In this document: piece after piece, positions 39,935 through 46,575 of the stretch
Layout: the number at the start of each line of letters is the position of its first letter
How positions within the stretch are numbered: the stretch's first letter is position 1
Source: Spirochaetae bacterium HGW-Spirochaetae-1
GTDB taxonomy: Bacteria; Spirochaetota; UBA4802; UBA5550
Length of the DNA stretch: 64,000 nt
Direction of reading: 5' to 3'
Assembly (NCBI GenBank): GCA_002839375.1
Contig: PGXY01000008.1
Location: 124,001-188,000 of the forward strand
Notes under the pieces: model-generated
The model's database searches: none
Seen by the model: only the letters and a program-made list of their open reading frames with translations
Told to the model about the DNA's origin: nothing
Program-made: the position numbers and the translations under genes

Positions 39935-42016
39935 TCATATCTTTTTTCTGATAAGAATGGCGGTGAGATCGTCGCGAAGTTTATTCGCGTTGCCTGTATG
40001 GTAATTAAACCGCTGCATGATATAGTCAAGGATTGAGGCCGCATCGCCATGGGGAGCCTCTTCAAGGGACTGCAGGAGTTTAATTTCTCCATAGGGTTCA
40101 TCGTTGCTGTTTCTCGATTCAACGAGAGAGTCGGTGAAAAGGAAAAGGCAGTCATCTTTTTCAAGAACGAGGGTAAACTCATGATACGGTTCCAGGAGGG
40201 TTTCAATTCCCAGAAAGGGCCCGCTCACGGATAGGCCGTCCTTGTTCATAACCATGCCGGTTTTCCCCGTGCTCTTCTTTCTATAGAGCATGGCGGGATG
40301 GGCGCAGTTGACGTAATCTATCTTGTCCTCTCTGAAACGAAGCAGTATTCCCGTTATATAATTATCCACAACGCCCAGTTCACTGATGAGCCTGTTGTTA
40401 ATGATTTCCGTGATGGTATTCAGTTTTTCATTTTTATATTTACTGAAGATGCGGAACACGATGGACCTGGCAAGGAGCGTGATAAGCCCCGATGATACGC
40501 CGTGCCCCGAGATGTCGAAGAGGCCGGCGCCCGTGAGAATGTTGTTTTCATGATAGAAGTCGTAGAAGTCGCCGGAAATTCCCGCCGAAGGCTTGAAGAG
40601 AAAGGCGATATCATACAGGTCCGATGAGGGCGTCACCGAGGGAAGGAATGATGTCTGTATTTTGGACGCCAGCAGCATATCCCTCTGTTGAATGTTATGC
40701 GCTTCTTCCAGTTCGCGGTTCAGGGTGACCAGGTTGTCGTTGACCGCCTCCATCTCCTCAAAAGCGGCTTCCAGTTCCTCGTTGGTTCCAATCAGTTCAC
40801 TGGTTCTTTCCTGCACCTTCACTTCCAGATTCTCATTGAGTTTTCGCAGGTTTATATTCAGGTTGTTGACCTTGTTTGCCATTCCCAGGGAGAAGAGGGC
40901 GATGCTGGCCGTGGCCCCCATCTGGAACCCCCAGAGCGACCAGGTGTGGTTGGCAAGGAGGCCGAAGCGGTTCAGAACGGTGACGATAACGCCAACGAAG
41001 AGGGTGGAAAAGGCCAGCGTGTACATCTGGTGTTCGCGGTTTTTCTTGATCACGGAGTCCGCCATGGGGAAGGCGATGATGCCTATTCCCGGCAGGTATG
41101 CCGCCGCTCCCACACGGATACCCAGAGAGTAAGGAACAAGGAAGGATATGAAGATGCATGCCGTAATAAATATACCGTAGAAAAATGCCACCCGGTCAAA
41201 CATGGGGAAGTTAACCTTCGTGTTCATGTAGGAACGGCTGAAGGATATCATGGTGATTATGGATAAGAAGAGCGTGGCCGGTGTTATATTATTCAGGGCC
41301 GGAACAGTGGGCCAGATGTACTGAAATCCATAGCCATTGAGCGAGAGGGATACAAGAGTCAGCGATATGAGGAAGGATGAATACCAGAAATAGGTAATAT
41401 CCCTCATGGAAATGGCCAGGAGTAGGTTGTATATAATCATTATAAGGAGGATGCCATAGAAAATGCCAAATAAGGTTTTCTGTATATTCAGTTCCGAGAT
41501 GACGCCCCTGCTTGAAAGTATCTGTACGGGAATGCTCAGCGAGCTCTCGGTCTTAACGCGGAAGTAACAGTCGTATGTCCCGGCCTTGACGGGAAACTGA
41601 ATAAGAAAATTGTGGTGATTGATGTCACGGTCCCGGAAGGGGAGCCTGTCGCCCATGGTACGTGACTGGATGGATTTCCCGTCACTGATGTAGAAATCAA
41701 TGCTGTCGAGGAGGGGATACCCTATCTCGAGGTACCAGAGCTCTTTGCTGTTTTCCGGTATGGTCACGGAGAAGCGTGACCATATGACCAGTGAGGTGAA
41801 ACCGTAGTTGGTTCTGACCGCCGGTTTAAACAGGTCCGTTTCGAACACTTCATTGAAACTCCTGGTTCCCTCGGGGTCTTCCAGTACCTCAAGGTGTACA
41901 TCGTAGGAGTTTTTTTCATTGAGTACGACGGTTTCAGCCCTGAGCCGCGGGAGAAATACCGTCATGAACAGCAAGAGGCATATGCAGGGTAGAAGAAAAT
42001 GTATATTATTTTTCAT
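39935..42016 (-). CDS. 7TM sensor with SpoIIE-type protein phosphatase domain
   Basis: The 693-residue protein starts with a signal peptide (MKNNIHFLLPCICLLLFMTV). An extracytoplasmic 7TMR-DISMED2-type beta domain follows (about residues 30-175), then seven membrane helices (about 180-395). Next come a coiled coil (about 400-465, LEVKVQERTSELIGTNEELE) and a PP2C/SpoIIE domain (DIAFLFKPSAGISGDFYDFY, GAGLFDISGHGVSSGLITLL, FLFTDSLVESRN) with its metal-binding Asp residues. Such proteins convert an outside signal into dephosphorylation of anti-anti-sigma factors. No STAS or anti-sigma gene is next to it. It follows ilvN by 103 bases but is probably unrelated. Confidence 0.86.
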   Translation of the reverse strand: MKNNIHFLLPCICLLLFMTVFLPRLRAETVVLNEKNSYDVHLEVLEDPEGTRSFNEVFETDLFKPAVRTNYGFTSLVIWSRFSVTIPENSKELWYLEIGYPLLDSIDFYISDGKSIQSRTMGDRLPFRDRDINHHNFLIQFPVKAGTYDCYFRVKTESSLSIPVQILSSRGVISELNIQKTLFGIFYGILLIMIIYNLLLAISMRDITYFWYSSFLISLTLVSLSLNGYGFQYIWPTVPALNNITPATLFLSIITMISFSRSYMNTKVNFPMFDRVAFFYGIFITACIFISFLVPYSLGIRVGAAAYLPGIGIIAFPMADSVIKKNREHQMYTLAFSTLFVGVIVTVLNRFGLLANHTWSLWGFQMGATASIALFSLGMANKVNNLNINLRKLNENLEVKVQERTSELIGTNEELEAAFEEMEAVNDNLVTLNRELEEAHNIQQRDMLLASKIQTSFLPSVTPSSDLYDIAFLFKPSAGISGDFYDFYHENNILTGAGLFDISGHGVSSGLITLLARSIVFRIFSKYKNEKLNTITEIINNRLISELGVVDNYITGILLRFREDKIDYVNCAHPAMLYRKKSTGKTGMVMNKDGLSVSGPFLGIETLLEPYHEFTLVLEKDDCLFLFTDSLVESRNSNDEPYGEIKLLQSLEEAPHGDAASILDYIMQRFNYHTGNANKLRDDLTAILIRKKI

Positions 42017-42119: not shown

Positions 42120-42419
42120 CTATCCGGCAACTTCTTTAAGAAGTCTTTCCATTTTTGCGTACATTTCGCTGTTTTTCCGGTCATGGACGATTATATCAAG
42201 GACATCATAAAGTTTTCCCAGCTGACGCAGGACCTGTTCAAGACGGATATCTTCTCCAACCAGGAGGAACATCCTGCTTGTCCCGGCCTTTCCCATTGCC
42301 GCGCAGAGGATTCCCTCCAGGTTAAAGGAGCGGCGGGAGAAGAGACCCGTCACCTGAGACATCACGCCGGGATGGTTTCTGACAATAAGTTCCAGTATGA
42401 TTTCATTCATACAGTTCAC
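42120..42419 (-). CDS. ilvN: Acetolactate synthase small (regulatory) subunit
   Basis: The 99-residue ACT-domain protein (ILELIVRNHPGVMSQVTGLFSRRSFNLEGILC) is of the short IlvN/IlvM type, without the second domain of the longer IlvH form. It binds the large subunit and normally mediates feedback inhibition by valine. Its start overlaps the end of ilvB by 17 bases. The end (KMERLLKEVAG) is complete. Confidence 0.93.
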   Translation of the reverse strand: MNCMNEIILELIVRNHPGVMSQVTGLFSRRSFNLEGILCAAMGKAGTSRMFLLVGEDIRLEQVLRQLGKLYDVLDIIVHDRKNSEMYAKMERLLKEVAG

Positions 42420-44085
42420 CTCCGATCATCTCAATATTGGATGCACCGGGAGGGACAATGGGAAGAACATCAAATTCCTCTCCCAGGGGCACGTTTATGA
42501 CACAGGGGCCCGGCGTGTTCAGGGCATGGGATAAAAGTGATATCGGGTCCGCGGCGCCGTCCAGGTTAATGCTCCGTATCCCGAAACCCTCGCCGATACG
42601 GGCGAAATCGGGCTTCGATATGAATTGTGACGCGAAAAAGTTACTGTTGTAGAACATGGACTGCTGCTGCCGCACCAGGCCCAGCTGGTTGTTGTTCATG
42701 ATCAGCACCTTCACGTTCAGGTTCAGATCTGCCAGGGTGGCCAGTTCCTGGAGATTCATGAGGAAGGAACCGTCACCGCTGATGCAGAGAACATTCCTGC
42801 CGGGATTTGCCAGGGCTGCGCCGATGGCCGCGGGAAGGCCGAATCCCATGGTTCCCAGTCCGCCCGATGTGAGCAGGCCGCGGGGGCGGCGGAAAGGGTA
42901 CATCTGGGCGGTCCACATCTGGTGCTGTCCCACATCGGTGGTGATAATGGCGCTGTCGTCCATGACCGCTCCCGCATGCTGGATTATGGCCAGGGGGTGA
43001 TTCGCGGCGTATACCTTTTCCCTGATACCCGGCAATGATTTTTTCAGGGTATCTATGCGGGAAATCCATCGCCGCCGGCGGCGGACGCTTACCTGGTCCG
43101 CCAGAAGGGTGAGGGCTGAACGGGCATCGGCGATGAGAGACAGATTTGTTTTTTTAATTTTATCGATTTCAGAGTGATCGATGTCAATGTGAACAATTGA
43201 TGCGTGCCTGCAGAATTCCCGAACCTTGCCTGTGGCCCGGTCATCGAAGCGGACTCCCACGGCCACGAGAAGATCGGACTCCTCGACGATGAGATTGGTG
43301 CTGCGGTCGCCATGCATGCCCAGCATCCCCAGGAAGAGCGGATCATCGGGAGAGAAGGAACCAAGCCCCATGAGGGACAGGGCCACGGGAATACTGTTTC
43401 TCCGGGCCAGGGTTCCCAGGGCATGGGAGGCATCGGAGGCGATAATGCCCCCGCCTGCATAGATCAGCGGCCTGCGGGCTTCGTCGATCATTCGGGCAAT
43501 CTGGTCTGTGGTTTCCCCGCTGCAGGGCCGGGGCAGCGGTATTTCCGGCGGCCCGGGAAAGCAGATAGCGTCGGCGGTCTGCTGCTGTACATCCTTCGGA
43601 ATGTCGATAAGCACCGGGCCGGGCCTGCCGGAAAGGGAAATACGGAAGGCCTCGTTGATGACATGGGGCAGTTCCCGGGCGTGGCGGACCATGAAAATAT
43701 GTTTTGTAACGGGAAGGGCCATACCATAAATATCAACCTCCTGAAATGCGTCGGTCCCGATCATTCCCGTAGGGACCTGCCCGGTGATGGCGATGATGGG
43801 AACGGAATCGGCATGGGCGTCGGCGATGGCCGTGAGAAGATTGACAGCCCCGGGCCCCGATGTTGCTATGCATACCGCCGGCTTGCCCGTGGACCGGGCC
43901 ATTCCCTGGGCGATGAATCCCGCGCCCTGTTCATGCCGGGCGAGGATGTGACGGATTGAGCTTCCCTGCAGAGCATCGTAGAGAGGCAGGTTTGCACCGC
44001 CCGGGATGCCCGTGACCGTTGTGACGCCCATTTTCTCCAGTGACCTGACGATGATCTGCGCTCCTGTGAGTGAATAATTATTCAT
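42403..44085 (-). CDS. ilvB: Acetolactate synthase large (catalytic) subunit
   Basis: The 560-residue thiamine-diphosphate enzyme condenses pyruvate, or pyruvate with 2-oxobutyrate, as the first common step of valine, leucine and isoleucine synthesis. Glu52 in RHEQGAGF is the cofactor-activating residue. GDGSFLMNLQELATLADLNLNVKVLIMNNN is the thiamine-binding motif, and SGPGAVNLLTAIADAHADSVP is typical. The start at 44085 is fixed by AGGAGG six bases upstream; the reading to 44118 runs into the terminator region. Expression is controlled by the valine attenuator just upstream. Confidence 0.95.
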   Translation of the reverse strand: MNNYSLTGAQIIVRSLEKMGVTTVTGIPGGANLPLYDALQGSSIRHILARHEQGAGFIAQGMARSTGKPAVCIATSGPGAVNLLTAIADAHADSVPIIAITGQVPTGMIGTDAFQEVDIYGMALPVTKHIFMVRHARELPHVINEAFRISLSGRPGPVLIDIPKDVQQQTADAICFPGPPEIPLPRPCSGETTDQIARMIDEARRPLIYAGGGIIASDASHALGTLARRNSIPVALSLMGLGSFSPDDPLFLGMLGMHGDRSTNLIVEESDLLVAVGVRFDDRATGKVREFCRHASIVHIDIDHSEIDKIKKTNLSLIADARSALTLLADQVSVRRRRRWISRIDTLKKSLPGIREKVYAANHPLAIIQHAGAVMDDSAIITTDVGQHQMWTAQMYPFRRPRGLLTSGGLGTMGFGLPAAIGAALANPGRNVLCISGDGSFLMNLQELATLADLNLNVKVLIMNNNQLGLVRQQQSMFYNSNFFASQFISKPDFARIGEGFGIRSINLDGAADPISLLSHALNTPGPCVINVPLGEEFDVLPIVPPGASNIEMIGGELYE

Positions 44086-44116: not shown

Positions 44117-44155
44117 AAAAAAAGCCCCTGCCGGTTTACACCGGCAGGGGCTTTT
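44117..44155 (-). terminator. Attenuator terminator of ilvBN
   Basis: On the minus strand a perfect 15-bp stem (AAAAGCCCCTGCCGG with CCGGCAGGGGCTTTT) around the loop TGTAAA is followed by further T residues (44117-44120). It lies between the leader peptide and ilvB. The sequence CGGTGTAAACCGG, spanning part of its 5' arm, the loop and part of its 3' arm, is the exact complement of 44182-44194 (minus strand CCGGTTTACACCG) at the end of the leader peptide. The two structures are therefore mutually exclusive. Confidence 0.92.
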
Positions 44156-44178
44156 GGATCTTCTGATTGTTTATTTCC

Positions 44179-44256
44179 CTACGGTGTAAACCGGTATGTA
44201 TATGAGCGCACCACGACCACGACCACTGAAAGGATGGTTTCGGTAAGGATGCTCAT
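44179..44256 (-). CDS. ilvL: ilvB leader peptide (valine attenuator)
   Basis: This is a 25-codon ORF, too short for standard gene finding. It begins MSILTETILS, then six consecutive Val codons (GTG GTC GTG GTC GTG GTG), and ends RSYTYRFTP before TAG. Ile and Leu codons also occur twice each. The last four sense codons form the antiterminator segment. Stalling at Val codons would leave that segment free to pair with the terminator; full translation would mask it and let the terminator form. This is the logic of the E. coli ilvBN and ilvGMEDA leaders. The ribosome site is weak. The symbol is by analogy. Confidence 0.88.
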   Translation of the reverse strand: MSILTETILSVVVVVVRSYTYRFTP

Positions 44257-44398
44257 AATACTGTTTACACGTTTCGGGTTCATAGTTTTATAATGTTTTT
44301 ATTACTGATTCAGACATACATGGCCATTGTTCAGTCCTGTCAATAAATATTTAATATTTTTAATCAGTTTCCGCGTTATTCCCGGAATATTTTATCAA

Positions 44399-46462
44399 CT
44401 ATTTTGCCGGTATTACGGGCAGATCAATGCGCGACCGGTACCTGTCTCCGCGATAGATGCTCCACAATGTTTCGGGACAATCCCATGGGCTCTCACCGGA
44501 ACAGGTTGCCGGATTTTTTTCGAAGTTTCCGTCATCAGCACCGGCTATGGCGATTCGTATACGGTGCCCTTTTTTAAACAGCCAGGAGACCGGCATAAGA
44601 TCAAATGAAAGCTTAACTGGCTTGCCTTCTCTAAAGGGATCAGGATCGAACTGCCTTTCCCTGTATCCGTGCCACGGGAGGTTTGGTTGGACGTCAAATT
44701 TTCCCAGCACCTGATCATCGTCATTAAAGGTGCGGTGCCATCCCGCCCGAAGTTGCCCCTCTGATACATAGAGGGATCGTCCCGACTGATCCACATCACA
44801 GAGATAGATAAAGACATCGGCGTCGGCCTGATTTGATGTCATATATATGGTCATAAGGGGATGCCCGGTAACCTCCATATCTTCAGCTAGGGGTTCGGTC
44901 TCATAGACCATACATCGCCTGTCAAGATCAGTTCGTTCCATGATCTTGGTTGGTGTTTTCATCATAATCCATCGATTGATATCTTCTTCCCCGTACCCGG
45001 AACGTTGTGTGTAATCGATAGAATGGACATCCTGTCCCGGCAAACCAATTATTCGCATGAGACGGCCCTCTTCAGAAAAATTATAGGAAGTCATCTCCTG
45101 TCTTGCCAGGGGCCATTCCTTTTCCAGACGCCAGCCTCGATTCATTACATAAAGGGAAACCGGCGGCTCTTTATCGATACCGTTCTCGATGTCTTTCAAA
45201 TAACGGTCGAAGAACCGCAGGCGTTCCAGTTCCAGCTGCTCCGGATAATTTTCTTTGTATTCCAGGTGTTTTACGTAGGCGTCAGTAACATAGGGGAGGT
45301 GAAACCTGGGTGCCACATGCAGTTTCTGTACACCGTTGTGCTGCAATGTTGCGAAGAGCTTCATTGTGCCCCGGGAAAAGCCGTCAAACCATCCTCCCAC
45401 ATGGTAGATTGGTATTCCCGATCGGGCGATGAGGTCTGTATAAAAGAGGGGGCTAGCGTTTTGAAATCGCAATCCCTTCAGGAACCTGTTGTTTATACTG
45501 TCAAAGTAGGGCGCATTGGCACGCTTCATGAAGGAAAAGGGTATATTTTTCCGGTGTTCTACGATTGTTTTATAATAAACGTCCCGGCGTTTTGAACCAT
45601 CCCTGTATCGCGGTTTCCCGTCATCAAGGAAGGTGCGGGTGTCGCCATGGTCCGAAAGGGGTATCTCGTCAGCCAGGTCTCCGTCACCATCTTCATCGAT
45701 TACCGGTGCCACGGGGAATACCCGCCGGTCGGGATCAAGTATGCTAAGGTTGAGACCCTTGAGAAAATCAGCATACTGCTCCATCCATGAGACCGCATCG
45801 ATTCCGCCCGGGCGAACACCTTCACTGAAGCTTTCTGAAAGTATCACCTCCGGCATGATGCATTTCAGTGATTTCGGATTTCTCGAGGCAAGCATCAGTT
45901 GGATCCAGGCGTGGTATGATTGTCCCATCATGCCTATTTTACCGTTTGACCATTTCTGAACGGAAATCCATTGCAGAAGCTCTTCTCCATCGTCCACAAT
46001 GACGGGCGTGAAGGGGACCTGGCTCCCGGTTGATGCGCCGCATCCGCGCATGTCGGCTATGACAAAGGCGTAACCATATTTTAGAAGAAGCTGAATTTCC
46101 TTTTTCATCCCATAGTGAAAGATCGGACCGGAGCTTCCCGATTTAACAAAGGCGACAAGTTTTTTCCACCATGGCATATCGAGCCAGCAAAAGGCGCGGT
46201 TGTAGGGAGTGAAGACAAAGACTGTCGGGAATTGATCAGCGGGAGGCCCGTCCGTGGGGAGAAAAACATCCACCGCGAGATTGACGCCATCTTTCATGGG
46301 AACCAGCTGTGTGGCCCGCTTATAGTCTTTATATGCTGGCGAACTGTATCCTGAATATGAAAAATAGCTGCTTTTCTTCTCAGTAATTGACCCGTTATCG
46401 CATCCGGTGACTGCCAAGGTAACTATAAAAATCAATAAAATCCCCGTTGATATTCTTTTCAT
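44399..46462 (-). CDS. CocE/NonD-family hydrolase, lipoprotein
   Basis: The 687-residue product starts at 46462 with AGGAG upstream and a lipoprotein signal (MKRISTGILLIFIVTLAVTGC). The alpha/beta-hydrolase domain follows: PMKDGVNLAVDVFLPTDGPP, YAFVIADMRGCGASTG, and the nucleophile elbow GMMGQSYHAW with Ser. The C-terminal half is the X-Pro dipeptidyl-peptidase-like jelly roll (MTIYMTSNQADADVFIYLCDVD). Family members cleave esters, glutaryl-cephalosporins or X-Pro peptides; the substrate here is unknown. The lipid anchor puts it in the envelope. The AraC gene just upstream on the same strand may control it. Confidence 0.87.
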   Translation of the reverse strand: MKRISTGILLIFIVTLAVTGCDNGSITEKKSSYFSYSGYSSPAYKDYKRATQLVPMKDGVNLAVDVFLPTDGPPADQFPTVFVFTPYNRAFCWLDMPWWKKLVAFVKSGSSGPIFHYGMKKEIQLLLKYGYAFVIADMRGCGASTGSQVPFTPVIVDDGEELLQWISVQKWSNGKIGMMGQSYHAWIQLMLASRNPKSLKCIMPEVILSESFSEGVRPGGIDAVSWMEQYADFLKGLNLSILDPDRRVFPVAPVIDEDGDGDLADEIPLSDHGDTRTFLDDGKPRYRDGSKRRDVYYKTIVEHRKNIPFSFMKRANAPYFDSINNRFLKGLRFQNASPLFYTDLIARSGIPIYHVGGWFDGFSRGTMKLFATLQHNGVQKLHVAPRFHLPYVTDAYVKHLEYKENYPEQLELERLRFFDRYLKDIENGIDKEPPVSLYVMNRGWRLEKEWPLARQEMTSYNFSEEGRLMRIIGLPGQDVHSIDYTQRSGYGEEDINRWIMMKTPTKIMERTDLDRRCMVYETEPLAEDMEVTGHPLMTIYMTSNQADADVFIYLCDVDQSGRSLYVSEGQLRAGWHRTFNDDDQVLGKFDVQPNLPWHGYRERQFDPDPFREGKPVKLSFDLMPVSWLFKKGHRIRIAIAGADDGNFEKNPATCSGESPWDCPETLWSIYRGDRYRSRIDLPVIPAK

Positions 46463-46575
46463 GAAATCTTCTCCTGTGATGGTAATCACAACTTTTTAAC
46501 CTTTTCAGGTTTGAGCTGCTTCATTTTACCCTGTGGGATGATCTCATGCAATCTGAATTATAAATCAGGAAACCG

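Follow-up and report, generated by a model that had tools for sequence, protein, structure and literature searches.

Introduction

Experiments have established transcription attenuation at the ivbL leader, which precedes ilvBN in Escherichia coli (PMC11187965, PMC5373646). For a long time, descriptions of leader-peptide attenuation came almost entirely from Proteobacteria and Actinobacteria; according to a survey published in 2010, its own case, that of hisS in Bacilli, was the first to be shown in any other group (PMC2965389). The His, Thr, Leu, Trp and Phe operon leaders (RF00514, RF00506, RF00512, RF00513 and RF01859) belong to the same mechanistic class as the locus described here, but they have other codons and genes, and the locus scores below the gathering threshold for them. 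Actinobacterial ilvB leaders (Seliverstov 2005, PMC1262725) and the Corynebacterium ilvB-II uORF (PMC10272879) resemble it in that ilvB is preceded by a short ORF containing branched-chain codons and by a terminator, but by their published descriptions they are part of another operon group (ilvBNC, ilvBHC). A Streptomyces ilvB leader failed a codon-substitution test (PMC1262725). T-box leaders (RF00230) found before ilvB in Clostridia share the IlvB clade and control by tRNA charging, but bind uncharged tRNA directly and have no leader peptide; that one such sensor can replace another is generally known (PMC2965389). We found no Rfam family for the ilvB leader, and E. coli ivbL gives no Rfam match either.

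Here we analyse the region upstream of ilvBN in Spirochaetae bacterium HGW-Spirochaetae-1, contained in a 64,000-nucleotide stretch of its genome (the window). The original prediction placed a valine attenuator here, in what seemed a distant phylum where ribosome-mediated attenuation is little described. The host indeed belongs to the Spirochaetota, and the papers we found agree on the second point; the open literature searched describes no ivbL-type attenuator in this phylum.

Results

A valine-codon leader precedes ilvBN

The features of the locus, all on the minus strand, are as follows.

42120..42410, minus strand: ilvN, short ACT-domain small subunit, 96 aa; its start overlaps the ilvB stop by 8 nt, ATGAATGA
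42403..44085, minus strand: ilvB, acetolactate synthase large subunit, 560 aa, of the E. coli IlvB (PRK08155) type by NCBIfam
44117..44155, minus strand: intrinsic terminator, 16-bp stem, 4-nt loop and U run at 44123-44117 (RNAfold; covarying)
44133..44149, minus strand: segment 3, CCCTGCCGGTGTAAACC, partner of segment 2 (antiterminator) or of the terminator arm (sequence and pairing)
44177..44194, minus strand: segment 2, the antiterminator 5' strand CCGGTTTACACCG plus stop codon plus GG (UAGGG) (sequence; conserved core)
44179..44283, minus strand: leader peptide ORF, 34 codons from a putative start at ATG 44283, MNPKRVNSIMSILTETILSVVVVVVRSYTYRFTP, stop TAG 44181-44179
44226-44209, minus strand: six consecutive Val codons, GTG GTC GTG GTC GTG GTG, the putative regulatory codons (letters of the sequence)
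44263..44270, minus strand: segment 1, the putative protector strand GTGTAAAC, exact complement of GTTTACAC at 44191-44184 (minimum free energy fold)

The best NCBIfam model for ilvB is PRK08155 (817.6 bits, below the equivalog cut-off of 870), and TIGR00118 scores 662 bits, above its cut-off. A strong Shine-Dalgarno sequence, AGGAGG at 44097-44092, precedes the ilvB start codon, ATG 44085. The leader therefore has the location of an ivbL attenuator, before an ilvB of the PRK08155/IlvB clade (support in the tree, 100) that is followed by a short IlvN. The upstream neighbour is a putative CocE/NonD-family hydrolase gene (44399-46489, minus strand) and the downstream neighbour (39935-42016, minus strand) encodes a membrane protein with a phosphatase region (weak SiaA match); neither appears tied to branched-chain amino acid synthesis.

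The predicted order of six consecutive Val codons, antiterminator, terminator and T run before ilvB was confirmed letter for letter. The 25-codon leader ORF of the original prediction also exists (ATG 44256, MSILTETILSVVVVVVRSYTYRFTP, ending at the same TAG, 44181-44179, on the minus strand), but its upstream limit had to be corrected: ATG 44283 is in frame with ATG 44256 and lengthens the leader to 34 codons. The longer form is supported because it can be aligned over its full length with the 34-aa leader, MKFSSVNIMNSLMTEPLVLLVVVVQLYIKTRFTP, of a locus from the same order (L005), equal in length and pattern. Since neither ATG 44283 nor ATG 44256 has a clear Shine-Dalgarno sequence, we infer the leader start; a promoter search of the region found no sigma-70-like site for the leader.

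As expected of an attenuator, the ORF, whether read as 34 or 25 codons, is short and contains consecutive codons for the pathway's end product. When the 313-base intergenic region was shuffled 3000 times with its dinucleotides preserved, no shuffle gave more than 4 Val codons in a row, compared with the six observed. Across the whole 5.2-Mb genome, counting every frame, sequence equivalent to five successive Val codons is found at 8 separate sites. Of 73 leaders, 68 have Val as the residue of their longest run, encoded by mixed synonymous codons, and the peptide sequence outside the run varies strongly among loci.

Alternative pairings of the leader RNA

The 13 bases of CCGGTTTACACCG (44194-44182, minus strand) lie directly 5' of the UAG and are the exact reverse complement of CGGTGTAAACCGG inside the terminator, precisely as predicted. 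The antiterminator helix extends through the stop codon to UAGGG:CCCUG, giving a duplex of segments 2 and 3 of up to 16 bp with one bulge. The terminator and its T run are likewise present, although the stem (44155-44120), predicted as 15 bp, has 16 bp by RNAfold (-32.3 kcal/mol); it is followed by 7 T at 44123-44117, and the U run is 31 bases from ilvB. Two further hallmarks of an attenuator are thereby found: an intrinsic terminator with a U run between the leader ORF and the first structural gene, and a mutually exclusive, covarying antiterminator, which shares sequence with the leader ORF and has the terminator 5' arm as its pairing partner. An inverted repeat of at least 13 bases arises in 67 of 3000 dinucleotide shuffles of the intergenic region; a single inverted repeat is therefore weaker evidence, and it is the comparative evidence that decides.

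Segment 1, of 8 bases, can also pair with the antiterminator to form a putative protector hairpin. The minimum-free-energy fold of the full leader consists of a long protector hairpin and the terminator (-68 kcal/mol, z -7.3), and the leader part folded alone has a z of -2.7. Covarying counterparts of the protector pairing were found in L005 (GCGTAAAC/GTTTACGC) and L004 (GTGCAAACCG/CGGTTTGCAC); the strand is clear in only some relatives (L001, L004, L005, L009 and L013). Matched partners outscored permuted ones (0/5000 permutations overall, 3/5000 in Spirochaetota), with controls that leave some shared ancestry. The protector pairing is supported more weakly than the antiterminator and terminator covariation.

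Conservation and covariation

A protein search yielded 11 ilvB-clade loci of the window's order with upstream sequence present, and all 11 have a Val-run leader and a strong terminator, with a stop-to-terminator spacing of 20-28 nt. An RNA covariance model added Val leaders in G011, G039, G040, G042, G045 and G056; G056 (L002) is outside the order, and its leader, an RNA-model match, lies >420 nt upstream. Val-run leaders are therefore present in 16 genomes of the order, 11 by protein search and five by RNA model, and no order member with readable upstream sequence is without one. For G039 and G040 the contig stops shortly past the terminator, leaving the next gene unreadable. Weak matches of model R1 in the phylum (E about 1e-4 to 0.01) were excluded, as these are often plain terminators. 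Relatives that keep the terminator while losing the Val run and the complementarity, the case that the original prediction had named as its refutation, were not encountered among these loci of the order.

The covarying stems that had been proposed as a check upstream of ilvB in relatives were found in the antiterminator/terminator complementarity. Across 44 loci the matched complementarity was 22.2, compared with 16.2 for permuted partners (sd 0.56, 0/5000), and for Spirochaetota alone the values were 23.0 and 18.2 (0/5000), shared ancestry partly remaining in both comparisons. In a 22-row alignment that included E. coli, the 11 antiterminator pairs showed 23 two-sided-change cells and a covariation score of 0.322 versus 0.195 (0/500), relative to controls that retain some shared ancestry. 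The 7-bp core of the antiterminator is 96% paired in the 22 sequences and has 21 two-sided changes (U-A/C-G/G-C, G-C/A-U and C-G/U-A). The terminator gave a covariation score of 0.259 versus 0.139 (0/500), again with shared ancestry partly remaining. The antiterminator duplex of L012 and L013 is weak when no gaps are allowed, and upstream of clade members L121 and L122 no leader was seen.

Three Spirochaetota ilvB loci (L118, L119 and L124) have a Val-run leader and the conserved hairpin without the U run, which suggests that intrinsic termination may have been lost there or that control may operate in another mode.

Relationship to E. coli ivbL

A model built from 13 non-Spirochaetota sequences (E. 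coli and 12 others) matched the window at 45.7 bits (E 5.9e-8, whole 5.2-Mb genome). This was the only significant site in the genome, the next match (E 0.09) being the window's own reverse strand, and the same model also matches most Spirochaetota relatives. Homology to known members in both sequence and structure, which defines an ivbL attenuator, is thus found with a model to which no Spirochaetota contributed. Fifteen loci of the other acetolactate synthase clade gave no match to this model, and an ORF scan of them showed no convincing leader (one weak spurious row). The leader unit is also found before ilvB in Proteobacteria, Hydrogenedentota, Omnitrophota, Fibrobacterota, Sumerlaeota, Latescibacterota, Acidobacteriota, Bacteroidota and others.

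Direct comparison with E. coli ivbL revealed the same downstream gene pair and clade, a Val-run leader, and an IlvN of equal size (96 codons in E. coli, 96 aa in the window). In both, the antiterminator strand extends as far as the stop codon (GCGCCG-UAG-GG in E. coli, ACACCG-UAG-GG in the window), 23 nt separate the stop codon from the terminator, and the terminator has the core CCCC..GCCGG; the E. coli terminator contains CCCCGCCGGCGC. The window, in contrast, has its six Val codons in one unbroken run and few Leu codons, while the Val runs of ivbL are split by Arg and accompanied by several Leu codons. The window also differs in its longer apical antiterminator (GGTTTACACCG), in the protector strand within the leader's first codons, and in its phylum. 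Most likely, the element and the E. coli ivbL attenuator are homologous, and the element has moved together with the IlvB clade. The original prediction had noted a parallel to the E. coli ilvBN leader; the layout is the same, but the relationship is probably one of homology and not only of parallel logic.

In a tree of IlvB proteins, the window's clade was separated from the other acetolactate synthases, used as outgroup, with a support of 100. The window joins its order relatives (96), and the other Spirochaetota are scattered among other phyla, a distribution indicative of gene transfer. Several joins have long branches.

T-boxes, tandem units and variants

At the position of the leader, eleven clade members that lack it have T-boxes instead: ten from Clostridia/Bacillota and one from Calditrichales (L041, L044, L047, L052, L056, L059, L070, L073, L082, L091 and L102). 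Unlike these 11 loci, the window gave no T-box (RF00230) covariance-model match at the gathering score, and a T-box identity was rejected for it. Identity with His_leader (RF00514) was also rejected, the score being 33.5 bits against a gathering threshold of 49 and the codons being Val, not His.

Two complete attenuator units, each a separate model match, lie upstream of ilvB in L014, L031, L035, L057, L060 and L114, and in several of these tandem loci a Val-rich ORF precedes each terminator. The ORF scan likewise found two leader-terminator units in L042 and L045.

Similar units were seen in other settings. A 69.6-bit match in L137 (1501-1593) has a leader, MKLRRTTIIHLKDAGKNTGVIFVWIGGIFAP, without a Val run and precedes a 401-codon reading frame that is not ilvB-like; it is possibly a relic or a re-used attenuator. 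Attenuator-like units with Val-rich leaders occur in L149, L147 (at a contig end) and L153, where the downstream genes encode a divergent acetolactate synthase, with 35% identity to the IlvB of the window, and an apparent aminotransferase. In L152, at a contig end, the leader ends in SLVLLLLTNTSWVSS, a Leu-rich run, and is followed by a terminator of the same style; this is a possible Leu-sensing cousin.

Discussion

The leader very probably mediates ribosome-dependent transcription attenuation of ilvBN in response to Val-tRNA, as judged from the anatomy, spacing, conservation and covariation that we observe. For the transcript, stalling, regulation and the step without translation, our model follows established attenuation by analogy. 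When valine is plentiful, the ribosome would pass the Val codons, reach the UAG and cover segment 2; segment 3 would then be free to fold into the terminator, and RNA polymerase would stop before ilvB. When Val-tRNA is short, the ribosome would stall within the run of Val codons. Segment 2 begins 14 nt past the last of these codons, so the stall would lie at least about 14 nt upstream of it. A stall at these codons would leave segment 2 free to pair with segment 3, blocking the terminator so that ilvBN is transcribed. If the leader were not translated, segment 1 or the long leader hairpin would hold segment 2, and the terminator would form.

The hairpin could instead be a mere terminator of the upstream hydrolase gene, with the Val-rich ORF and the complementarity arising by chance or composition; it is, after all, a strong intrinsic terminator about 245 nt downstream of that gene's stop codon, on the same strand. 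This is very improbable, because the unit precedes ilvB across genomes and phyla, shuffling gave the observed Val run in 0/3000 cases, antiterminator and terminator covary, and the 15 loci of the other acetolactate synthase clade have no match. A leader-peptide switch might also act at another level, through ilvB translation, Rho-dependent termination or nascent-peptide stalling in place of Val-tRNA shortage. The loci that retain leader and hairpin without a U run (L118, L119, L124) are consistent with such a switch, as are candidate Streptomyces ilvB leaders that did not behave like classical attenuators when mutated (PMC1262725). In the window, however, the 16-bp stem is followed by a U run, the ilvB Shine-Dalgarno sequence lies free outside the stem, and the peptide varies strongly outside its Val run, as expected if the codons and not the peptide are read; we consider control at another level very improbable here.

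A metabolite- or protein-binding leader, either a riboswitch or an unrecognised T-box with an incidental ORF, has precedents in a Leptospira ilvB motif proposed as a weak riboswitch candidate (PMC8632094) and in the T-boxes that control the same gene clade in Clostridia. We regard it as extremely improbable for the window, which has no Rfam match at the gathering threshold except tRNAs, and whose best sub-threshold match, His_leader, is itself another leader-peptide family. The region is, moreover, only about 165 nt long, and its conserved parts are the end of the ORF and the terminator. Val-tRNA-dependent attenuation thus remains our preferred reading.

The mechanism is a classical and ordinary one; what is new, by the open literature searched, is its host phylum. 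To the first reading of this locus we add the putative protector strand, the longer ORF and the probable homology to ivbL, and the homology across phyla is of more interest than the single site. On balance, we favour the view that ivbL-type attenuators form one homologous RNA family, without an Rfam entry, that has moved with ilvBN as a sensor-plus-enzyme cassette among about ten or more phyla, has been exchanged with T-boxes in Clostridia (in either direction), has been tandem-duplicated in several lineages and has at times come to stand before other genes. If this is right, attenuators of the ribosome-mediated type can remain recognisable across phyla and were not invented anew each time. 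The points that are new are the probable homology across many phyla, the lack of an Rfam family, the tandem copies and the T-box exchange.

A classical valine attenuator with the E. coli layout is very probably present in the Spirochaetota, and it is shared by many phyla that were not previously known to use it. The ilvB leader is an RNA family that could join Rfam. Leader peptide and T-box, two sensors of tRNA charging, offer a natural comparison on a single enzyme clade. Our findings suggest that the regulator is inherited or transferred with its enzyme, so that regulation in uncultured phyla may be predictable from sequence alone.
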